22,500 nucleotides of DNA from Chromera velia. Its lineage: Eukaryota; Sar; Chromeraceae. Location of the stretch: NCBI GenBank assembly GCA_018398765.1, contig JAHBMJ010000932.1:1-22500 (forward strand). The letters run 5' to 3'. The notes beneath the pieces were generated by a model, which ran no database searches, was not told the DNA's origin, and saw only the letters and a list, made by a program, of their open reading frames with translations. Shown here piece by piece: positions 1,208 to 18,320 of the stretch; within the stretch, counting starts at the first letter, position 1; the number at the start of each line of letters is the position of its first letter. Made by a program: the position numbers and the translations under genes.

Positions 1208-2209
1208 TCGGAATTTATAGATACAAGTGAGTGTGCGCGCAAAGCGCGCAGAAGTGACTAAGGACGTGTGAGTGTGTTATGCCAAACTATATAAACTATG
1301 ACGGGCTGAAGGAAAACGTTAAAAGACATATGAACATACAGATTACAGGCTGATTCTACGGTCTGATTACTAAATCCTTTCCTGCCAAACTGATGATATC
1401 CAAATATATCAATCACTCATTCACTCAATCAATCAATCAGTCGATAAATGTATATATATTTAATATAGATATACTAATAAATAACCTGTATACTAAAGTC
1501 ACCAAAATTAATTAAAGACGAATAACACCTATGCACATCATAGAATATTCTAAAAATCCTTAGACTTATGGGTAAAGACATTCTGTAACCTTCTTTATAG
1601 GATATTTTTTGATCAATGTTTTATATACTAATATGTAGTAATTAATTAGCTCATCAATAATCGGTCAAAAGAGTTTTTACAATCAGGTACAAATTTTCCT
1701 AAATCTCCTCAAACAGCTTATAATTATAAAAGAGTTTATATTTTTGTGTAATAAATGCAATAAGTGCTGATCGATATTGACGATCAACTTACGGATCAAG
1801 TATATGATCAAGTCAAGGAAACTTACCATGCAATACCATCATGAAAAACATGTATCAAAAAGCAATTTAATGTTCAATAAATGCCGGTCAATGTTGATGA
1901 TCGAGTACAATCAAGTCAAGAAAACTTATTATGAAATAACTTTCAGGCGCTGTTATGAAAAAACAGGTAAGATAATAGCTACGTCCGGAGAGAGAAACGA
2001 AAAGGGGGAAGAGAATGAAGAAAACAGTAACAGAAAAAAAAAAACACAAAACAGATAAAGAGGATAGAAGAGGCGACGGGAGAAAAGATAGAAGAGCGGA
2101 AAAGCAAAATATAGAAGGTTGTCAGACTAACAATTTTTTAAAGGCAGTGCTTGGGAAGGGCGGTCCAGTCAGAACTTTGCAGTGAACACGGGGAAACAGA
2201 AAGATCAAA
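1208..2209. other. AT-rich intergenic sequence with a weak internal duplication
   Basis: No coding or RNA gene is visible. From about 1440 the stretch is strongly AT-rich. An imperfect tandem duplication is visible at about 1752-1945: both parts contain a GCAATAAGTGC/ATAAATGCC-like start, a GATC-rich middle and the shared core CAAGTCAAG(G/A)AAACTTA. From 1980 to 2150 the plus strand is purine-rich (AGAGAAACGAAAAGGGGGAA type). The open frame at 1777-2058 is low complexity and lysine/asparagine-rich, and I do not regard it as a gene. Confidence 0.5.
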
Positions 2210-2260
2210 CGCATGCCGGGGGCGAGTGGGATGCTTTTTGAGTAATGGAGTAGAGTAGTG

Positions 2261-2832
2261 GGTGTGACGGCTTTCTTCTTTCAGAGCTCTTTATGGGAAG
2301 TCTGTAAGTCTGGAGCATACACAGAGTCCAACAGATGTTGCCTGAAGTAATCAATGAAGTCAAATGATTTCGACGGAGCTGAAATTCGTGCGGCGCGGCA
2401 CTGAATCGAATGCGCGCACGGCGGTTAATCGAATTCACCTGCAGCCTAGGGCGCGCGCGATGGCTTGCCCCCGGCCCGCCCCATGGCTTAGCCTTCCTGC
2501 GTGTGCATGGACAGAACGACTGACACCCTATGTCTCAACTCCTTCCCTCGGGTGTGGCGGCTTTCTTCCTTCAGAGCTCTTTATGGGAAGTCTGTGAGTC
2601 TGGAGCATACGCAGAGTCCAACAGATATTGCCTGAAGTAATCAATAAAGTTAAATGATTTTGACGGAGCTGAAATTCGTACGGCGCAGCATTGAATCGAA
2701 TGCGTGCGCGGCGGTTAATCGAATTCACCTGCGGCCCAGGGCGCGCGCGACAGCTTGCCCCCGGCCCGCCCCGCGGCTTGGCTTTCCTGCATGTGCACGG
2801 ACGGAACGACTGATACCCTATATCTCAACTTT
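2261..2832. repeat. 290-bp tandem dimer inside the TIR element
   Basis: Copy 1 is 2261-2550 and copy 2 is 2551 to about 2832. Both begin GGTGTG(A/G)CGGCTTTCTTC and share landmarks such as CAGAGCTCTTTATGGGAAG, GACGGAGCTGAAATTCGT, GGCGGTTAATCGAATTCACC and CTTGCCCCCGGCCCGCCCC at the same 290-bp offset. Differences are mostly transitions (C to T or G to A), as expected for old copies with methylation-driven decay. The minus strand is open through each copy (2438-2205 and 2728-2528) and both translations start MNSINRRARIRF. I take this to follow from the duplication and not to show that it encodes a protein. Confidence 0.9.
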
Positions 2833-2858
2833 TTGCCCCCCCCTCTGCATAGGAGACC

Positions 2859-3216
2859 GGCGCTTTTCTGCAAGAAACTTGTTCTCATAATTGGTAAAGA
2901 GTTAGAAGCTGAAACTTTATGTAAAAAGATGTTATAATGATAGAAAAAGAACTATAGAACAGATTTTTTATATTATTTCTAGAAACATAGGCTGCCATAC
3001 AAATTTTGTAAGTTCTATATTGTATTTTTTACTATTCAAAACCGTTAAAAAATGGCCTTAAAATCAAAAAATTTGTATGGCAGCCTATATTTCTAAAAAT
3101 GATATAAAAAATCTGTTCCATAGTTCTTTTTCTATCGTTACAACGTCTTCTTACACAAAGTTTCAGCTTCTAACTCCTTACCAATTATGAGAATGAGTTT
3201 TTTATGGAAATACGCC
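2859..3216. repeat. long inverted repeat (foldback), 150-bp arms, 59-bp spacer
   Basis: The left arm (2859-3008) and right arm (3068-3216, read in reverse complement) share long blocks including CATAATTGGTAA, GAGTTAGAAGCTGAAACTTT, ATAGAAAAAGAACTAT, GAACAGATTTTTTATAT and GGCTGCCATACAAATTTT. The inner 127 bp are nearly identical and the outer 25 bp are more diverged. A transcript through it would form a strong hairpin. It lies immediately inside the right TIR of the surrounding element and is probably part of it, though it could be an independent foldback insertion. Confidence 0.9.
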
Positions 3217-3259
3217 GCTTTAGGCGGGCAAAAAGCACCCTACTCGCCCCCGGCATGCG

Positions 3260-3686
3260 AAATTTGGGAGGTAGTCAGGCAGACAAAATGGGTACCTGGG
3301 ATGATGAGAAAGCAGTCAAACAGGTAGGGAGGCAGAACTTTAAGTACACTCAGAAAAGAACTTCAAGACCAAATTAGGAATGCGGTCAGGCACACAAGAA
3401 GGCATACCTTCGTACGAGAGCCAATAGGCAGGTAGGTTGGAACACGCTCAATCGTGCCGGAAGGAAACGTCAAGACGGAAACACATGCAGTCGGATTGCG
3501 ACCTCTGAATCTCACCGTTTGTTTGTGAGATGGCATATGGAGATGTGTACAGCTGAGAGGTCGGATATTAAGAGGTCAGAATTGAGAGAAATGGCATGAA
3601 AGAGGCAAGATAAGAGAAGTGAAATGCAATTAAGTGAAGAGATGAGATATGAGTAAACAGGGTCACCAAGAGAGTAGCCTGTGTGC
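3260..3686. other. purine-rich cryptically repetitive sequence
   Basis: No gene is visible. The plus strand is rich in short degenerate words such as GGCAGAC, CAGGTAGG, TGAGAGG and GAAGAGATGAGATATGAG. It looks like a worn-down simple repeat. The pyrimidine-rich tandem repeat that follows has the complementary composition. Confidence 0.5.
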
Positions 3687-4010
3687 CTGCCTATCTGTCT
3701 GTCTGCCTGTTTGCCTGCCAGCCTGCCTAACTATGTACGTCTGCATCTTTGCATGTCTCTCTGCCTTCCTACTATTCTGCCAGTGTCATTCTCTCATTTT
3801 GCCTATCTGCCTATTCTGCCGTTTAGAATATTTGCCTATTTGCCTACCTGCCTGCCTGCCAGCCTGCCTAACTATGTACGTCTGTGTCTTTGCATGTCTC
3901 TCTGTCTTCCTGCTATTCTGCCAGTGTTATTCTCTCATTTTGCTGGTCTGCCTATTCTGCCCTTTAGGATATCTGCCTGTTTGCCTGCCTGCGTACCTGT
4001 CTGCAATGCC
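3687..4010. repeat. 141-bp tandem repeat built on a TGCC/TGTC tetranucleotide
   Basis: Two copies are visible, 141 bp apart. The landmark CCAGCCTGCCTAACTATG recurs, placing CTATGTACGT at 3731 and 3872. TTGCATGTCTCTCTG, TATTCTGCCAGTGT and TATTCTCTCATTTTGC-type blocks recur at the same offset. The edges dissolve into TGCC/TGTC repeats. Because 141 is a multiple of three, the frames run open through both copies as 47-residue Cys/Leu/Pro-rich repeats (for example 3681-4049). I read these as a consequence of repeat structure, not as a gene. Confidence 0.85.
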
Positions 4011-4683: not shown

Positions 4684-5500
4684 CAGCTTAGCTCTGCTGA
4701 GATCACTGACAGCCGAGAGGCCCTGGGATCGCACACACTCATTTTGGAGGGGGGGGATTGGTTCTGTCTCTGTCACGGTCGGTCAGTGTCGCCCGAGTTC
4801 CAAAATATGCCCCTCAAGCAACTCGCATGGAGCCGCGATCGCGCGTGCCTTACTTACTTTACGCATGCATGCCCCTCAAGTATAACTCGCATGGAGTTGC
4901 ACATACGATGCGCGCAGTCCCAAAAAACATATACTTCACGCGTGTTGCCGTGGCCTCCACCCCATGGCAGCATATAAGATATGCCTAAGCCTCCGATGGT
5001 GTGCACTAATCAAATATGAGCGGACCCCCTAAATGGCCTCCCGAGGCACTCACCCAACTGGTTGGGTATATCTTGTGTCACCTCGTCGGGCAGCTCAGCT
5101 CTGCTGAGATCAGCCGAGAAGCCCTGAGATCACACGGATCTGTATAACGCATTTTTTTATTTTTGGAGGGGGGGGTTCGGTTCTGTCTCTGTCCGTCCAT
5201 CACGGTGTTGCCCAAATTTCAGAATATGCCCCTCAAGCAAGCCATACGGAGCAGGGATCACATTATAATTACTTCGCTCCTCATGATACATGCCCCTGAA
5301 GTAACTTGCACGGAGTTGTATGTGCACGGTCCTGAAAAGCATATTGTACGCATGTTGTCATAGCCCCTACCACTTTATACAGGTAAGACATGCCCAAGTC
5401 GATCCCTCAATGATGCTTTACATCAATCAAGTTGGCCGACCGGGTCCTCCTAAATGGCCCCCCAAGGCACTTACCCAACTGGTTTGGTGTATCCCGTATT
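4684..5500. repeat. 407-bp tandem dimer
   Basis: Copy 1 is about 4684-5090 and copy 2 about 5091-5500. Both start CAGCT(T/C)AGCTCTGCTGAGATCA. They share, in the same order, a G-run after TTTTGGAGG, GGTTCTGTCTCTGTC, AATATGCCCCTCAAGCAA, ATGCCCCT(C/G)AAGTA, CGGAGTTG/TGGAGTTG, CTAAATGGCC and GGCACT(C/T)ACCCAACTGG. Divergence is clearly higher than in the 290-bp dimer, with several short indels. No coding capacity is recognisable. It directly abuts the next repeat unit at 5511. Confidence 0.85.
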
Positions 5501-5510
5501 ACGCAACTTT

Positions 5511-5873
5511 ACCGAAAGGTTTGGCAGGTGGGGGCTGAGCGGCCCCTCCAACCACAATCTTCATTCGCTAAATCTAGTCACATATACTCACACAATACCA
5601 CACATCTACTCATCATTGCAACACAATGTAGGTCGTTTCCTTACTTCCTATCATATACAGTTTTGTCGGTTCATACAGCATCTCCTGCCGACTCTATCTT
5701 GCAGGTCATTGACTGTATTGATTCCACTTAACATACCGATTGTACAGGCCGTATATAGCCGTGTACGTATTATTTTTGTATGCATGTGACTTTATGTGAG
5801 GGTGGTGGATGTCTAGAAAGGTGGCCACGTGGCTGACGCCCGGCCACACCCTGTGGCGGCGCTAACCCTTTTG
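5511..5873 (+). repeat. left ~360-bp direct repeat
   Basis: This matches 7223-7583 along its whole length. Shared blocks include AGGTTTGGCAGGT, GGGGCTGAGCGGC, AATCTTCATTC, CCTGCCGACTCTATCTTGCA, GGTCATTGACTGTATTGATT, GACTTTATGTGAGGG and GATGTCTAGAAAGGTGGCCA. Differences are almost all transitions. The sequence after the repeat (GTCCCCCTCATCTG) differs from that after the right copy. Confidence 0.9.
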
Positions 5874-6399
5874 CGTCCCCCTCATCTGATGCACTCAGTT
5901 CTCTCTTCTACCCCGTTCTCTTTGCTTCTTTTTCTATCTCTCTCTATCTCTTTCTCCATCTATAAGCTTTCTACGCGAGTCTGTCGAAGTCTTTGCTGGC
6001 CATGAGAGGTTTCAGTCGCCCAGGTACTTTATAACTGCAGGGCAGACCTCTTCATGTCCCTTGTTTCTCCTCCACCTGGCCCATAATTAAGGAGTCCCTG
6101 CATTCACTCCCTGCCCGCCTTGCTTTTTTCAGACCCACTTTGCTCCATCATCCCTGTCTTCATGAGCCCCTTCAATGGCTATACATGACTCCAACCCAAT
6201 CGCCCGCCAGTTCCTGCCTTCGGTTTTTAACGATTAGTAAAATGTAGCCTCCTCAGGCCTGCACCCGCTGCTCTCCGTCTCCTTGGCATCGTGTGCTCTC
6301 CCCCAAGTTCTGAACACAGACAACCGGTCGATTTTGTATCCCACCATCCATTCTCTCATCTCCGAAGGCTTCCGGTTCTCATTGGGTCTCTTGCTTCTC

Positions 6400-7583: not shown

Positions 7584-8189
7584 CGCAACTTTGACAAAAG
7601 TTCTGCACACACGGGATGCCGGGGCCCAGGGCCTCGGTTCTTGTCTAGATCTGTATACCCCTGCAACCTGGCTCAAGGGGTCTCGCGCAAAGTTGCCCGA
7701 CTTCGACACCCATCCGTCATGCAATGCAACAGCTCCGTGCGAGTCCCCCGTGAAACTGAACTTGACCGCGAAAAAAGCCCAAACGTGCCCCTCAGGCGTA
7801 TTTAAGCGTAAACATCGGGGCCGCACTGCATGTGATCCGTAAGAAATGACTGCATGAGTCAGACTGACCTGCAAGCATAAGCTAGCTACGATCTTCGATG
7901 ATAAAAAAGAACTGCATAGTATTGGATAGACGTAGCTGCAAATTCTCCTGTATATCTGGACCAGATGGAGGTAACAGGCCCACCAGTAAGTTCGAATTTG
8001 CAGTCAATCTTGCGTCTGTGCATGCAGCTAAGCAGCAGCTTTTTAACTGACCTTCCTACGAGAATGAGTCTAGAGAATGAGTGTACTCTGCACAGTTCAA
8101 TCAAGCATTTTTCTGGACGCGTGTCGGGAGAATCGAATCTTCAAGCCAGAATTCGTATATGAAGATAGACACGCAGACGTTGAACTTCT
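7584..8189. other. unassigned sequence between the direct repeat and the satellite
   Basis: No gene is recognised. The first 250 bp are GC-rich and open in several overlapping frames on both strands (for example 7492-7842 plus and 7874-7482 minus) with no domain or codon signature to choose between them. The final segment, 8155-8210, recurs at 9867-9925 and so brackets the satellite array. Confidence 0.5.
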
Positions 8190-9340
8190 CTCTACTTTTA
8201 TCTTTCTCTCTGTTTGCATGACAGCCTCTCCACTTCCATCTTTCTTTCTCTCTGTTTGCATGACAGCCTCTCAACTTCGATCTTTCTGTCTGTTTGCATG
8301 ACGGCCTCTTCACTTTCATCGTTCTGTCTGTTTGCATGACGGCTTCTCCACGTTCATCATTCTGTTTGTTTGCATGACGGCCTCTCCACGTTCATCGTTC
8401 TGTCTGTTTGCATGACGGCCTCTCCACTTCCATCTTTCTATCTGTTTGCATGGCGGCCTTTCCACTCCCATCTTTCTGTCTGTTTGCATGACGGCCTCTC
8501 CACTTCCATCTTTCTGTCTGTTTGCATGACGGCCTCTCCACTCCCATCTTTCTGTCTGTTTATACGAAGGCCTCTCCACTTCCATCTTTCTGTCTGTTTG
8601 CACGACGGCCTCTCCACTCTCATCTTTCTGTCTGTTTGCATGACGACCTCTCCACTTTCATATTCCCATCTTTCCTTTTTGCTTGCCTCGTAGGTCTCTG
8701 CTTTCTTCTGTCGTGTTTGCTTGCATGACGGCTTTCCGCGCTTCCATCTTAATTTTCCTGCCGGCGTGTTTGACCACCTCTCTACTTGCGTTTTTCCTGC
8801 ATGATGTCGACTTGCATGAAAGCGTCTTTGCTTCCATGTTTCCTGCCAGTTTGCATGACATGTTCTCAGCTTCCACCTTCGCTGTTTGCTTGCATGCCGA
8901 CTCCCCACTTTTGTCTGTCTTGCCGGCTTGCATGACCACTTTCCACTAGCTTCCATCTTTCCTGCCTGCGTGTTAAGGGCCTCTCCAGTTTCATGAATCT
9001 TTTCTGTCGCCTTGCATGAAAGATTTTCCGCTTCCATGGTTCCTGTCGGTTTGTGAGACATCTTTTCAGGTTCCATCTTTCCTGACAGTGTGCATGCACG
9101 ATGACTTTCCACTTTCCTCCACTTTCGTCCGTCTTGTCTGCTTGCATGATGGGTCTCGGTGCTCCCATCTTTCCTGCCTGCGTATATGACGGCCTCTCCA
9201 GTTTCATCAATTTTTCCTATCTGCTAGCCCGTCTGCTTGCAGAAGGTCCGCTTCACTTTCATCTTCCTTGTCTCCTCACATAAAGACCTTTCAGTCTTCA
9301 TCTTTCTTGTCTGTCTGCGTATATGACGTCTGCTCCAGTT
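8190..9340. repeat. 38-bp minisatellite array, regular then decaying
   Basis: The consensus unit reads TTTGCATGACGGCCTCTCCA followed by CTTCCATCTTTCTGTCTG. Unit starts at about 8213, 8255, 8293, 8331, 8369, 8408, 8445, 8484, 8521, 8559, 8597 and 8635 keep a spacing close to 38. From 8680 onward the same words (TTGCATGA, TTCCATCTTTCCTGCC) recur with irregular spacing, indicating an older, degraded half. The minus strand of the consensus has no stop codon in any frame. It therefore reads through as a 38-residue periodic peptide (QTERWKWRGRHANRQ type), with one continuous 224-codon frame at 9112-8438. This follows from a stop-free unit whose length is not a multiple of three. It is not a CRISPR array because there are no unique spacers. 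Confidence 0.9.
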
Positions 9341-10642: not shown

Positions 10643-12703
10643 ATGGCATCCAGAGTGAAATTCTTTTTCTTCTTTGGGCGAGCATCGGAACACGTGCAGT
10701 GTCTCGCAGCATCGAGCGGTCTTCTCTGTGCGCTGGCATTTTTCCCCCTGACACAAAAGAGACGTACCGTCTACGCAGAGGCAGGGCGGGAAAGTGATTC
10801 CCTTGGGACAGGGGGGTTTTCCCCTACCTTGTTTCAGAGAAGTCTTCTGTCCCCTCCAGACTCAAATGAAGTGCAGAGACGGGATGAAGAGGGGAACGGA
10901 GGTTTTTTTCCGAGTGCCAATTGGGCATTGGCTCATTATCCGCACAGTCGGTTGCCTTCCTATGAGAATTTGCGGGTTCGAGATGGCTACATGTCGTCTG
11001 TCAATTTCCGTCTCCGAATCCCCAACTGGGTCGCTGAAAAGGTCACACAAGAGACCTTGAGTGGAGAGGCCAGTAGAGACGGCGTGCGTTTTTTTTCAGA
11101 CCCAACCGTCCCATTTTTCTGGAATGCCCGTCATACGGACTATTGGAATTCCGGGTACAGCAGGGGACACATGGCGACCGCAAGTTCGCATAAGAACACA
11201 CAGAAGACGCTTGCTGAGACGTTCTCACTCAGTGGAAACTGTCTGCCCCAAGATATGGCAAACAATGGAAGTGACTGGTTGATGTTAGAGCGATTTGCCC
11301 AAAATCTGACCAGGCACTTCGATGAAGTCTTCGTCTTATCAGGGCCCCTCTTCCTTCCCCAACCCCCGAAAAGGCAACGCGAAGAAGAGCAAGAGGGATC
11401 CCCGGCCCCTCCCCTCGCCCCCCTCTCACTACCCCCATCAAAAGGGAGCGACAGACAGACGAAGGAAGTATCGTATGATGTGATAGGCCCTCAGTCAGTC
11501 GCTGTTCCCACACACCTGTTCAAAATTATTTTCTGTCGCAGTCCGAAGAAAGCAAAACAGACGGAGGAGACGGAGTCCGAGTCTCCCCACCAGACCCCAA
11601 CCCGACCACTATTGCACAGGGGGTCTCTTTTTGGTCCCGACCCGAGTTCTGTAAACTTTCCGGGGCCAGAAGGAGAGACGGGGGCCCTCCCTTCCGTCTC
11701 CCCTTCAAATCAGATGGGGGAAGGGGGTTCCGCAAATGGACCCAGTGGCACTCTTATGTCAGCCTTCGTGACCCCCAACAGAAATCTTCTCCAGGCACCA
11801 AAAGATGGAGCAAAAGCCTTCCAGGTCCCCGTCTCCTTCCTTGCCTTCCACAGCGGCCTAGATCTGTCCGGCATCGTGCCGCCAGAGGCAGCAGCGGCCC
11901 TCGGAATGAATAGAAGGGTGGTACAGGGGCATTCCGACGTTGAAATTAGTAGAGTGACGTCGAACTCCTCTGACGTGTCTCTGCCAACTTTCACAGGGCC
12001 CGCAGAGACCCTGGGGGGGTTGATTGAGCCTGAGGGTGTGATGTTGCGACTGGAGGCAGATGCAAGGATGCATCCGATGAAGCCGTTGTTCGGAGGACGG
12101 GAGGGGCAGGAGGGGAGAGGAAAAGAAGGGGGGAGAGGGAGAAACTTGGGGGGGGGCACCGGAGCTGCGCCCATTCTTCCTGGCAAGGGAGGAGAGTCTG
12201 AGTCTGAGGGGAGGGCGGCCCGTTCTTCATTTGAAGTGCGAAGAGTCGGAAGTGTGTCGGGGGGGTTGTCGGACGCGAATTCGGACAGGCAGTCTGAGAG
12301 TGGACATGAGGAGGTTCAGGAGAAGCTCCCCCCGGTGTGGCTGAGGGGATATGATCAGGTGAGGGGGGCTGGGGATGCCTTGCTAGACCGTTGGGATCTC
12401 TGTGTGCAATTCGGATGCTCTGATGGAAAGATGTTTGACTCAGATAGGTCGAGACAGTGGAGGTACTTAGGAAAAATCCGACACCTGCAGAGACGGTATC
12501 GACAGTTGCAGAAAGGGTATGAAGGAGGAGGTACACGTGGAGTTGAAAGAAATGCAGAGGGGGGTCCCATTCAAAGCTCGAAGGGATGGCTCTTAGAAGA
12601 ATTGAAAAAATTGAGAGAGGAGTATGATGCAAATCATTTCAAAGAAGAAAATTTTCTTATTGAACGGGCATTCAAGGAGGCAGCAGGCATGCAGTCTGAG
12701 TAA
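10643..12703 (+). CDS. EXOG-type mitochondrial DNA/RNA non-specific endonuclease, insertion-rich
   Basis: The 686-residue protein belongs to the beta-beta-alpha-metal (Endonuclease_NS/EndoG) family and is closest to EXOG, which trims 5' ends of DNA at the mitochondrial inner membrane. Residues 172-176 read YSRGH, the EXOG variant of DRGH, with His176 as the catalytic base. Asn199 (GNCLPQ), Asn208 and Glu216 keep the exact spacing of the metal and active-site residues of the family. FRLRIPNWVAEKV, LSGPLFLP (232-239), VSYDVIGPQSVAVP (276-289), AFVTPN (374-379) and LSGIVPP (408-414) follow the EXOG order. The basic N-terminus with a hydrophobic segment (about 18-36) fits a mitochondrial signal anchor. 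Low-complexity insertions at about 241-275, 300-370 and 415-580 almost double the usual length (human EXOG is about 370). The C-terminus (584-686) is helical and charged. The ATG at 10643 is first in a stop-free single exon. Confidence 0.93.
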   Translation: MASRVKFFFFFGRASEHVQCLAASSGLLCALAFFPLTQKRRTVYAEAGRESDSLGTGGFSPTLFQRSLLSPPDSNEVQRRDEEGNGGFFPSANWALAHYPHSRLPSYENLRVRDGYMSSVNFRLRIPNWVAEKVTQETLSGEASRDGVRFFSDPTVPFFWNARHTDYWNSGYSRGHMATASSHKNTQKTLAETFSLSGNCLPQDMANNGSDWLMLERFAQNLTRHFDEVFVLSGPLFLPQPPKRQREEEQEGSPAPPLAPLSLPPSKGSDRQTKEVSYDVIGPQSVAVPTHLFKIIFCRSPKKAKQTEETESESPHQTPTRPLLHRGSLFGPDPSSVNFPGPEGETGALPSVSPSNQMGEGGSANGPSGTLMSAFVTPNRNLLQAPKDGAKAFQVPVSFLAFHSGLDLSGIVPPEAAAALGMNRRVVQGHSDVEISRVTSNSSDVSLPTFTGPAETLGGLIEPEGVMLRLEADARMHPMKPLFGGREGQEGRGKEGGRGRNLGGGTGAAPILPGKGGESESEGRAARSSFEVRRVGSVSGGLSDANSDRQSESGHEEVQEKLPPVWLRGYDQVRGAGDALLDRWDLCVQFGCSDGKMFDSDRSRQWRYLGKIRHLQRRYRQLQKGYEGGGTRGVERNAEGGPIQSSKGWLLEELKKLREEYDANHFKEENFLIERAFKEAAGMQSE

Positions 12704-13208
12704 TGAACCTCTTATGTAAGATGTAAGAAACTTTTTCGTCTGATTTCTATGCTTACATGCAAGTACATGCAAGTACACGCATATACACGCAAGTTATGAT
12801 GTCACCACTGTCATGAATGTGATTCTCATCTGTTTAATTCTTATGTGTTGCTGGACAGGACTGGAGAAAGATTCACATAAAGATAGAAACTGTTTTATTT
12901 GATTTCTATATTTGCATGCAACTATATGCAAGTACATATAAGTTATGATGATGATGATGATGATGATGTATGGTAATGTATGGGGTTAAAACCGGCGAGC
13001 CGTATAGGATCTGGCCAATCTAGAATTTTATGCATAGATTCGATCCTTCGACCTAGGCCCGCCTAGGCCCCACATGAATGAGATTCTCATGTTATTGTTT
13101 AATTCTTGTGCCAGTGTGATTCTGGAGAGGATTGAACAAAAATTTATGTACGTAGAGATAGAAACTGTTTTATTTGATTCTTATACTTGCATACAACTAT
13201 ACGTAAGT
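12704..13208 (+). repeat. dispersed repeat copies directly behind the nuclease gene
   Basis: Three related segments lie here. A partial one at about 12715-12800 contains GATTTCTATGCTTACATGC and CAAGTTATGATG. A second, at about 12812-12948, starts CATGAATGTGATTCTCAT and includes AGATAGAAACTGTTTTATTT and GCAAGTACATATAAGTTATG. A third, at about 13073-13208, starts CATGAATGAGATTCTCAT and contains the same AGATAGAAACTGTTTTATTT. A (GAT)8-type trinucleotide run lies at 12945-12969. A fourth, more diverged relative is at 14655-14765. The family begins within about 12 bases of the stop codon, so it probably supplies 3' UTR sequence. It has no coding capacity. Confidence 0.8.
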
Positions 13209-14393
13209 TAGGGCTGGGAAAAGGTTCATTGAGAAAAGGTTCAAATCTGAAAAAGTGAACCTGTTGAACCTGTTTTGAACCTGTTGAACCTGTTGAACCT
13301 GTTTTGAACCTGTTTTGGAGGCCAGACGCGTGGCCACTGGTACAAGGCCGGCCAGGCCCGCGCCGCCCGCGGCTGATATAGGTGAAATAAGGAGCCGGAG
13401 CCGCGCGCACAGCAACTGTCCCCAGCCGGTTCAATCTATTATGTCGGATAGATGCATGTCGGCATATGTTAGCATCATATGTCAGCATGAAAACTCATGC
13501 TGACGGTTGCAGAAGTGAAGAAGTACATGTGACTTAACAAGTTTTCCACTTGCAAGGCCCCGCATCAAAACGGACAGTCTCCACTGAAGGAATGAGGAAG
13601 TATAGAGTTTGTTTGACAACAGTTTGCACAACAGTGTAATTGACAATGTCTTTTTGGAGGGGCTGCTTCAAACTCGTGCCGGCAGTAGTCCCTCTGTTTG
13701 CTTTTGCTTGCTTGCTTCCGATGACACAATATTGCCAATTCACATGATCGTGTGCACTGATGAGTATTCGAAAACAGAGTTTCAATCCGATTTTGTGTGG
13801 CAAAAGGTTGGAACAAATGCAAACCCAGATGTTTGGGTGCCATCCGCCATAGCTGGGAGTGGTGGGGGCCATGGGGGGGAGCAGGGGCCCAGGGGGGGGG
13901 GCAACACGCCGGGCCGGGAGCAGCAGGTCAAAGAGGCGGCGGTACACGGAGAGAGAGGGGGAGAGCGGGGGCCGCGGGGCAACCGGTGAGCAGATGAAGA
14001 AAGAAAGAAACGCTATGATGGTCTTAATTATGTTGACTAAATTATTATGATTGATACGATCATATAAATTTAATTATGGCATTTTCTAATTTTTTTAGGC
14101 TTTTTTGATTACTAATTTTTGACTATAAACAGTGAATAACTTGAGACTAGCACCTAATATGAGCGTAAATATTGATTTAAACTATTTAAAAACACTACTA
14201 AGGCATAGATTCTATAATAAAACGTTCTAAAAATGCATTAAAGCCTAATTTAAAGGCATAAAATAATACAAAAAAATGAGGTTTCTATTAATTAAAATTG
14301 AACTTGTTTTTGAACCTGTTTTTGAACCTGATTCAGGTTCATTACTTCGAAGTGAACCTTGAACCTTGAACCTTGAACCTTTTCCTAGCACTA
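13209..14393. mobile_element. 1185-bp hAT-superfamily non-autonomous element with 8-bp TSD
   Basis: The left end TAGGGCTGGGAAAAGGTTCA and the reverse complement of the right end, TAGTGCTAGGAAAAGGTTCA, agree at 18 of 20 positions. The flanking octamers ACGTAAGT (13201-13208) and ATGTAAGT (14394-14401) match at 7 of 8. An 8-bp duplication and TAGGGCTGGG-type ends are hallmarks of hAT elements. Just inside both ends lie clusters of GAACCT (six copies at 13257-13317, several at 14313-14380), the usual arrangement of hAT subterminal binding repeats. The interior has a GC-rich block (13319-13420), an open segment on both strands at about 13534-13989 in which I find no transposase or BED-finger signature, and an AT-rich right half. 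The element interrupts one copy of the dispersed repeat at 12812-13208, giving a clear order of events. Confidence 0.87.
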
Positions 14394-14401
14394 ATGTAAG
14401 T

Positions 14402-14948
14402 TTTCCGAATTAAGTTATAATCTCACTGATCGAAGCTTGTTTCAAATGAGTGCATGTACGCTTTGTGTGGTTGTTCAGCCTTTAGCTCCGGCCTAGGCTG
14501 TGGACGGTTGTGGTTGTTCATATTTATGTGGAAGCAGGCTAAGCTGTGACGGCATGCTCCTTTTGTTTACAACTGCATGCATGAGTTGCCATTTGTCTCT
14601 GGTTTTGGAGACCCTAGGCTTAACTACAATTAAGTAAAGTAAAATAAGTAAGTATATGAATGAGATTCTCATAGGTTTAATTCTTGTGTGTACTTGTGTG
14701 ATTCCTAGTGTGGACTGGATTAGACTGGATAAGACTGAATAAAGATTCACATAGATATTGAAATTAACATCTAAAGAAACGCCGTCATTAATCTTCTGTT
14801 CTTTTATGCTCGCTCTTATCTTATTGTATTTTATTTAACATTATTTTATGTTATTTCATTAATAATTTATACTAAGAATTTTTTAGAATTTTTTAAGAAA
14901 TTCACTATATTTTTTTATGTTTTTGTTGTTGTTAGCTTGAAACCTCAT
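14402..14948. repeat. continuation of the interrupted repeat, further relative at 14655-14765, AT-rich tail
   Basis: Sequence after the hAT insertion (TTTTCCGAATTAAGTTATAA) continues the interrupted copy. From 14655 a relative of the family begins ATGAATGAGATTCTCATA and runs through TTTAATTCTTGTGTG and AAAGATTCACATAGATA to about 14765. GCATGC occurs near 14548 and 14573. From 14766 to 14948 the DNA is AT-rich and featureless; it lies downstream of the U2 gene. No protein gene is visible. Confidence 0.6.
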
Positions 14949-15136
14949 GAGTGCACAACATGACCGAAAGTGTAAGCGGACAGCTATGCGTGAAGTAGAG
15001 TGCAAGCAAGCTTACAAAACTACCTCCCCGAGAAAAATTGTTGTGATAAAGTGGGTCTGGATGGACCCATATCAGCTGTCACACTGATAAGAACAGATAC
15101 TACACTTGATCTTAGCCCGAGGGGCCGAGAAGGTAT
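14949..15136 (-). ncRNA. U2: U2 spliceosomal snRNA
   Basis: Read on the minus strand from 15136, the RNA begins AUACCUUCUCGGCCCCUCGG and continues GGCUAAGAUCAAGUGUAGUA and UCUGUUCUUAUCAG. This is the near-invariant U2 5' domain: stem I, then the branch-site-pairing GUGUAGUA. Stem IIa (UCAG-UGUGACAGC-UGAUA) and a short stem IIb (GGGUCCAUCCAGACCC) follow. A single-stranded Sm-type site (AAUUUUUC) lies near 15020. Stem III pairs GAGGUAG with CUACUUC and is capped by UGUAAG-CUUG-CUUGCA. Stem IV, near 14958-14982, is shorter and diverged (UGUCCG/CGGUCA with a U-U mismatch), and the RNA ends near UGUGCACUC. The length of about 188 nt is normal for U2. The 5' end is well fixed by homology; the 3' end is good to about 5 nt. 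Confidence 0.96.
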
Positions 15137-16370: not shown

Positions 16371-18043
16371 CCCCCCTCACTCCCTCCCTCGCTCCCTCCC
16401 TTCCTCCCTCCCTCCTCCCTTCCTTCCTTCCTTCCTTCCTTCCTTCCGTCCTTTTTCTCATTTCTTGCTTCCCTTTCTTGCTTCTCTCCCTTCTTTCTCT
16501 TTCTCTCCTGCTCTTTCTCTGTTAGCCTCTCTCTTTTTTCTGTTTTTCCCTGTCGATTTCTCCGTCCCTCTGTGCGTTTCTCTTTCTCTGCCTGCCGGTC
16601 TCCTCCCTGTCTCATTTTCTTTCTGTCTCTCTCCTTCCCCCCTACTGCCAACAGTGTTTGCGCAAAAGCAAGAGTCTTTGAGGGAGGGAGGGCGGGTGCG
16701 TGTGTGTGAGTGAGTGTGTGAGTTAGGTAGTGCATGAGTCAGTCAGAAAGAGAGATGCATGGATAGGTAGGTAGAGAGAGAGAGAGCAGGTGTATTTGTC
16801 TTTGTGCCTGCGCACTGCAGGCTGATGATACGCAATCGCATAGCTTGGGAGGCGTATAAGGGCACGACCCACTACCACATGATGCAATGGAGAATTGCTG
16901 TCATTGGGGTCTGCCTGCTCATCGTCTCCTGGCCCCTCCACTGGATGACGAAGGCTTATAAGAAGGACGTGTTCGAAAGTCAGTCAGTCAGCCTGACAGC
17001 ATGCAAATTTGAAGAAGCCTCTGTAATTCGTCTATTTCACATCTGTATTCGTTCATTCCACCTCTATGTGCATGTCTTTTAAATTTCTTTGCTACAGGGC
17101 GTACAAGAGGAAAAGACGTATTCAAAAAATCAGTAAGTCGGAAAACACAGAAGAAGGTTGAAGAGAGTGAAGGAAGGAGGAGTAAGAAGGAAAAGAAGCA
17201 CGATAGATGCCTCGTCAGTCCTGATATTTGTTCAGATGCTTGATGGATCCCTGCAAGTGTGGCGTCTTTGGGCTTTCTCCTTCTCTTTGTTTCTGCTTGT
17301 GCGTTTTCTTGTTTCTTTCAGCTTGTTTGTCCGAGAACATACCTTCTATTTTCATTCCCCGTCTCCTTTACCTCGCGCTTCAACCACGTCTGTCTGTTCA
17401 TTGTCTGTCTATTTGCCGAGGCCCCTCTGTTGTCTCTTTCTTTTCCATCCATCCTCTCTTCTTCATCCTAGCTCTCTGGGTTCGTCCGGCCGCACTCTTC
17501 TCATGTCTTTTTCATTTCTTTCTGTCTCATCTCTGAATTCTCTTCTGAAATCGTTCCACTGCTGCGTCCGTCCGTGAGTCTGTTGCGAGCGTGTACGTGC
17601 GTCTGGGAAGTGTACGACGTGCTATTGGATTGGATAACGAAGCATCTCTTTGTCGCTTTGCTGTTCACCCCGTTACTTCCCTGTCCTCTTCTACTTCTAC
17701 TGCCCTATGGGTTGTTTCTCTTTGAGTCTTTTTTTTTTGCGTCGACGAAAGGGCCGACCGAATCACATTACGGGTTTTGTTCCGTCTTTGTTGGATCTTT
17801 TGTCTCAAAAACGTAGGGCATTGTCTGTCTTCCCTTCTGCAAAAGGAATGTCCTTTTTCACGAACCCTGGGTGGCCGTGTTGTGTGCTTCCTCTCGTCAC
17901 TTTTTCTTTCTTTCTTTCTTTCTTTCTTTTCTTTCTTCCTTCCTTCCTTCCTTCCTTCCTTCATTTCTTCCTTCCTTCTTTTCTTTCTTCCTTTCTTCCG
18001 TCCTTCCTTCCTTCATTTCTTCCTTCCTTCTTTTCTTTCTTTC

Positions 18044-18078
<35 letters not shown>

Positions 18079-18205
18079 TTTTTTTTTTTTTCTTTTCTTT
18101 CTTCCTTCCTTCCTTCCTTCCTTCATTTCTTCCTTCCTTCTTTTCTTTCTTCCTTCCTTTCTTCCGTCCTTCCTTCCTTCATTTCTTCCTTCCTTCTTTT
18201 CTTTC

Positions 18206-18240
<35 letters not shown>

Positions 18241-18267
18241 TTTTTTTTCTTTCTTTCTTTCTTTCTT

Positions 18268-18320
<53 letters not shown>

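Follow-up and report, generated by a model that had tools for sequence, protein, structure and literature searches.

How did a segment of 1185 bp, bounded by transposon-like ends and devoid of any recognisable transposase, come to lie within a local repeat of the Chromera velia genome, and from what was it made? The segment occupies positions 13209 to 14393 of the stretch of DNA analysed here (22,500 nucleotides, hereafter the window), limits which the original prediction of a hAT insertion had placed exactly. Our results indicate that it is very probably a non-autonomous element comparable to the Ds-del class, namely a deletion derivative of a hAT-type family, which was probably mobilised in trans and formed by abortive gap repair. 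Its membership of the hAT superfamily is well supported by the ends and the target duplications, and moderately supported by the protein evidence. The features concerned are the following (positions in the window, strand in brackets).

13209-14393 (+): predicted non-autonomous hAT-type element, internal deletion derivative with a junction of class A, 1185 bp
13209-13228 (+): 5′ terminal inverted repeat (TIR), 20 bp, matching the 3′ TIR at 18 of 20 positions
14374-14393 (-): 3′ TIR, 20 bp
13201-13208 (no strand): 5′ half of the target site duplication, ACGTAAGT, a 7/8 match with 14394-14401
14394-14401 (no strand): 3′ half of the target site duplication, ATGTAAGT, differing from the other half by one transition
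13222-13311 (+): 5′ subterminal hexamer cluster, with AGGTTC at 13222 and 13237 and GAACCT at 13257, 13266, 13277, 13286, 13295 and 13306
14312-14380 (+): 3′ subterminal hexamer cluster, with GAACCT at 14312, 14324, 14354, 14361, 14368 and 14375 and AGGTTC at 14335
13209-13703 (+): 5′ segment, aligning with the start of the parent-like copy (bases 1-495, 93%)
13704-13721 (+): deletion junction with filler repeating the adjoining GCTTGCTTCCG; about 5170 parent bases missing
13722-14393 (+): 3′ segment, aligning with the other end of the parent-like copy (parent 5667-6296 at 91% by BLAST, followed by the TIR)
13074-13208 (+): upstream part of the interrupted local host repeat (paralogue 12813-12933, 76%)
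14402-14423 (+): probable resumption of the interrupted host repeat on the downstream side, a weak match with AAGTTATRAT common to the paralogue

The near-perfect TIRs that had been announced are indeed present, TAGGGCTGGGAAAAGGTTCA and TAGTGCTAGGAAAAGGTTCA being identical at 18 of 20 positions, and so is the target duplication, which matches at seven of eight positions as read beforehand. TIRs of this shortness fall within the 5-27 bp given for the hAT superfamily in PMC3517528. The subterminal GAACCT clusters, also part of the original prediction, hold all the hexamers of the window element (12 GAACCT and 3 AGGTTC), which are confined to 13222-13311 and 14312-14380. A Pfam scan of three open reading frames overlapping 13209-14393 gave no match, as expected from the claim that the central segment has no recognisable transposase.

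A search for further copies with the same ends and their own 8-bp duplications had been proposed as the way to verify the insertion, and such copies were found in the assembly (177.8 Mb in 4040 contigs). Using the element as query, we obtained 60 aligned stretches, and at least 11 copies besides that of the window align from base 1 to base 1185 with 85-96% identity; the copy counts from this search are lower bounds, because only the best 40 of 280 candidates were scored. Genome-wide, the first 18 bases of the 5′ end are found at 409 places with at most two mismatches, against 8 for the reversed pattern, and the exact 20-mer of the 3′ end at 133 places, against none for the control.

The comparisons below rest on a sample of 40 copies with both ends. 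It comprises 24 of the 30 loci L001-L030, the other six being left out as one or both ends were absent from the alignment, and 16 copies chosen by eye from about 45 pairs of 5′ and 3′ motifs among the matches listed, four of them for their unusual length. Between these copies, the inner 150 bp at each end match in all 780 pairs (E ≤ 1e-5), and the outer 150 bp match in only three pairs on the 5′ side and one on the 3′ side, none of which involves the window copy. Homology running past 13209 or 14393, which was to count against the original prediction, is therefore limited to a few other copies. Similar outer flanks were seen in the pairs L012/L027 (on both sides), L026/L052 and L027/L058; these are perhaps insertions into copies of one repeat.

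The second test that was to count against the insertion, a look for flanks lacking 8-bp duplications, did not refute it either. The duplication is exact in 15 of the 40 copies and matches at seven of eight positions in another 10 (that is, at least 7/8 in 25 of 40), compared with a single pairing out of 1560, and no exact one, when the flanks of mismatched loci were paired. The differing base is a transition in nine of the 10 copies with a 7/8 match. The other 15 copies match at 6/8 or worse, which weighs against the reading proposed here, and when the duplication was read as 5, 6, 7, 9 or 10 bases, it was exact in none of the 40. The hexamer clusters are likewise common to the family, with a mean of 5.9 GAACCT or AGGTTC per 130 bp at each end, versus 0.01 per 130 bp inside (40 copies).

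The 36 complete copies without a nested insert range from 668 to 1592 bp. These lengths, together with some 29 junctions in the 40 copies (see below), rule out a MITE in the sense of a homogeneous short family descended from one progenitor. The four remaining copies (L046-L049) contain nested insertions in addition to the deletion. One of these, L047, has an exact AAGTTTGG duplication and holds an insertion of 6.3 kb whose open reading frames, judged by eye, look copia-like. Four long motif pairs, on C2452 (4155 bp), C1043 (6920 bp), C696 (2504 bp) and C1541 (1699 bp), were considered as longer relatives of the family and rejected, as they proved to be deleted copies holding nested DNA.

From what element were these copies derived? 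An internal piece of copy L055 has 29 matches in the genome, and the one on C1271 lies about 5 kb from a match to the 3′ end. The stretch fetched at this place (L064) contains a copy of 6308 bp with the TIRs of the family and two mismatches at each search motif. All 40 copies are colinear with the two ends of the C1271 copy and lack its middle: their 5′ parts reach parent base 791 at most, their 3′ parts start at base 5273 or later, and the homology extends over nearly the full length of every copy, to the left and right of the junction alike, well beyond the TIRs. The window element consists of about 500 bp of the 5′ part and about 640-670 bp of the 3′ part, so that about 5.2 kb has gone, the transposase region included. 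The shortest retained ends in the sample are about 150 bp on the 5′ side (L023) and about 200 bp plus a 31-bp piece on the 3′ side (L050). The original prediction had left open whether the element was a deletion derivative or a new non-autonomous family; with a 6.3-kb hAT-like parent and a junction recurring at 10 places, both descriptions hold.

If L012 and L014, with junctions that differ by 5 bp, are taken together, the sample carries about 29 different primary junctions (otherwise 30). The junction of the window element, class A, is shared by seven of the 40 copies and was found at 10 places genome-wide with at most two mismatches (control, none), and the two-copy classes are B (L020 and L027), C (L052 and L055), D (L054 and L056), E (L011 and L015) and F (L012 and L014). 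The class A filler measures 18 bp by alignment in the window and 11-13 bp in L002-L005, L007 and L008, and repeats the sequence adjoining it. At 21 of the about 29 junctions, representing 31 copies (the nine copies with two junctions or nested inserts are excluded), the mean microhomology is 1.52 bp, compared with 0.66 bp when the same parent is joined at random (p about 0.0005 by simulation), and at least 2 bp is reached at 8 of these 21 junctions (binomial p about 0.01). These figures rest on manually entered values: junctions with a filler of 6-25 bp (classes A and B, L010, L019 and L051) were set to 0; class E was given the value 1 of L011 (L015 gave 4) and class F the value 1 of L012 (L014 gave 0). 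Both the microhomology and the filler repeating adjoining sequence fit abandoned gap repair after excision, a process that Rubin and Levy reportedly proposed for Ds.

General end joining typically leaves microhomology too, and the deletions could have arisen as ordinary genomic events in copies already inserted, rather than by gap repair linked to transposition. Such events would suit the second internal deletion that we observed in five copies (L026, L028, L050, L054 and L056). However, one and the same junction occurs at 10 places with different flanks, and therefore a deleted form has transposed. Moreover, both ends are spared in 40 of 40 copies, although this sample was chosen for having both ends and is biased in that respect. 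Altogether, we find it unlikely that ordinary deletions produced the family.

Gap repair linked to transposition is thus the origin that we favour. The transposase of the parent would have recognised the TIRs and the GAACCT hexamers, and the deletion would stem from the abandoned repair of an excision gap (abortive gap repair/SDSA). The shortened copy would have been pasted in trans into the local repeat, with 8 bp duplicated, and the same junction would then have spread to the 10 places at which it is seen. It is this recurrence of the class A junction which suggests, from sequence comparison, that the transposase of the parent mobilised the deleted form in trans.

Divergence among the seven class A copies is 2.0-6.7%; the copy nearest to that of the window is L002, at 2.9%, and the window copy has nine changes absent from the other six (gap-free columns). 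For pairs of copies of different class, the mean is 6.7% on shared columns. In a tree built from the shared ends, class A is split into two groups (supports of 1.00 and 0.99), the class B, E and F pairs are not sisters, the C and D pairs are, and the deep nodes are poorly supported. This discordance between junction and end phylogeny (L001-L008, L011, L012, L014, L015, L020 and L027) speaks against a simple account of the family and may reflect gene conversion between copies, or else noise, since the deep supports are low. There are 809 low-frequency changes, including 591 transitions, of which 463 are C>T or G>A. We looked for a decay signature and found CpG (4.1%) and CpA (3.4%) only mildly above CpT and CpC (2.4% each), and therefore claim no specific decay process.

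Does the C1271 copy adequately represent the parent? On shared columns, it differs by 4.8-8.0% from 34 of the 36 copies, and by 13.8 and 13.9% from L056 and L054, respectively; it has no recognisable target duplication and it is broken. The copies could accordingly form a free-standing MITE-like family, issued from another, unseen transposon sharing its ends only, and not from a C1271-like element. We consider this very improbable: the homology to C1271 is not restricted to the TIRs and, as just described, covers almost whole copies on both sides of the junction, and some other places in the genome keep parent sequence into the BED finger or into the C-terminal piece of the transposase.

These two pieces also bear on the superfamily. 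A full-length relative encoding a hAT transposase with a Dimer_Tnp_hAT domain had been predicted. The 6.3-kb copy on C1271 provides the relative, but its dimerisation domain stays below the cut-off. Inside this copy, an open frame of 501 residues includes a BED zinc finger (PF02892), a domain common in the hAT superfamily, with a marginal score of 20.7 bits versus a cut-off of 20.6. A separate frame, GGSERVFSTAG...LRRNAL, matches Dimer_Tnp_hAT (PF05699) with 12.3 bits versus a cut-off of 21.4, the copy being decayed. Motifs such as TTDNASSM and CVNHDINLAV look hAT-like, the former being a candidate motif for the RNase H-like catalytic core with DDE residues that marks the superfamily. When PDB sequences were searched with the 501-residue frame, no hAT transposase was retrieved, only a BED finger with E = 0.1, and a profile search of the genome with PF14372 gave nothing over the cut-off. 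Membership of some other superfamily that also makes 8-bp duplications is the least probable of the alternatives: the length of the duplication alone is not decisive and the dimerisation domain is below its cut-off, but short TIRs, subterminal hexamers, a BED finger and a SERVFS-type piece all go with hAT and jointly point to it.

The hAT-type copy on C1271 is broken in more than one way, its DPVDWW and SERVFS pieces being in different frames and a nested element of about 2.1 kb sitting between the middle and the C-terminal pieces of the transposase (L064 coordinates, one line as above).

L064, about 1757-3871 (-): nested element, about 2.1 kb, bounded by inverted ends of its own (TAGGGGGGTCACGGACTCC and GGGGTCCGTGGCCCCCCTA close to them) and flanked on either side by TGCTAGCA

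The 501-residue frame has 13 matches in the genome, none of which, apart from C1271 itself, exceeds 73 residues. The C-terminal piece has three matches, on C1271, on C1436 (a 29-residue remnant at 76%, enclosed by a pair of 5′ and 3′ motifs spanning 819 bp) and on C3770 (a 40% relative). Small transposase remnants elsewhere in the genome also match the family interior, and longer relatives may exist among the places that retain the interior, for instance on C2561, C3448 and C3538. The searches with protein pieces found no intact transposase source in the assembly, and the sole transposase locus that they found there, C1271, is broken. The family has therefore probably lost its mobility, except if unassembled DNA harbours an intact copy, as it may.

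Seven loci at which PF05699 exceeds its cut-off (L031-L037) were considered as partners of the family and rejected, as the surrounding stretches (L038-L044, of which L038 and L041 reach a contig end, L039 includes 2001 N and L042 99 N) offer no better match to the family end motifs than one with 5 mismatches over 18 bases. These loci are taken for other hAT elements or (domesticated) genes.

How does this family compare with known systems? According to PMC3260210, maize Ac/Ds elements have an 8-bp duplication, short TIRs and repeats of the hexamer AAACGG within about 200 bp of each end, and the Ds-del elements are simple internal deletions of one autonomous parent. The duplication, the short TIRs, the subterminal hexamers and the simple internal deletions of one parent all recur here; in contrast, the Chromera family has another TIR, GAACCT in place of AAACGG, a 6.3-kb parent-like copy which includes a nested insert, and an algal host. 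All the copies sampled in the present work are deletion forms derived from their parent, whereas the most numerous class in maize B73, 486 of 903 according to that paper, has little besides the TIR in common with Ac. Mar, a hAT MITE of Drosophila for which an origin by internal deletion and amplification has been proposed (PMC3517528), likewise consists of non-autonomous hAT copies, next to which a full-length relic persists in the genome. It differs in being assigned to the Buster group, and many different junctions were found in our family. A parallel for the junctions is given by the Rhodnius mariner clusters MITE_9 and MITE_120, which consist of many copies with differing internal deletions of one parent and for which PMC4678618 invokes abortive gap repair; these, however, belong to the Tc1/mariner superfamily.

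The Chromera family is a new family of a long-known kind of element. Our literature search brought up no description that we recognised as this family. It provides an algal hAT case in which the copies examined are internal deletion derivatives and the transposase source is nearly gone, so that the abandonment of gap repair and the disappearance of autonomous copies become readable from sequence outside plants and animals. A more ambitious proposal, which we put forward tentatively and hold to be somewhat doubtful, is that the family constitutes a natural deletion library of one hAT element, its about 29 deletions mapping the ends sufficient for movement. The sharing of a junction by copies that differ in the phylogeny of their ends would then mean, in addition, that gene conversion or template switching between copies has reshuffled these ends. 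If this were true, the carriers of the library would show which ends suffice for movement, with the transposase source down to a single broken locus.

As for the insertion site, the original prediction described the element as datable, as splitting one copy of a repeat, and as having an empty site that could be reconstructed from sister copies. Related stretches are found in the window at 12813-12933, 13074-13208 and 14656-14763. The first of these aligns to the insertion point and, weakly, beyond it (47 of 5000 shuffles score as high); the splitting of a repeat copy is thus backed by a local paralogue up to the insertion point, and only weakly past it. The same paralogue offers one view of the empty site, but the numerous sister copies that had been anticipated did not appear, as a genome-wide search with the joined flanks gave only two matches, both in the window. 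The dating holds as a relative order of events and not as an age in years. The segment 14424-14657, which begins 22 bp past the target duplication, belongs to a different repeat of about 230 bp with at least 38 other copies in the genome at 86-90% identity.

The neighbourhood of the element includes, about 550 bp downstream, a U2 spliceosomal RNA gene (14946-15136, minus strand, 128.8 bits) and, ending about 500 bp upstream, an open frame of 686 residues with a DNA/RNA non-specific endonuclease domain (10643-12703, plus strand; PF01223, E 5.4e-34). Further upstream, the stretch 2210-3259 has inverted ends of 31 nt (94%) around a near-palindrome at 2858-3217 with arms of 157 nt (87%), and looks like another inverted-repeat element with an internal fold-back. 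Two tandem arrays were also noted in the window, one of 12.4 copies of a 38-bp unit (8188-8661) and a long one of TTTC type with about 100 copies (17903-18302). In the assembly as a whole, a light-harvesting protein resembles PDB sequences only distantly, and the chlorophyll-binding family PF00504 has 58 matches, those of a photosynthetic eukaryote.
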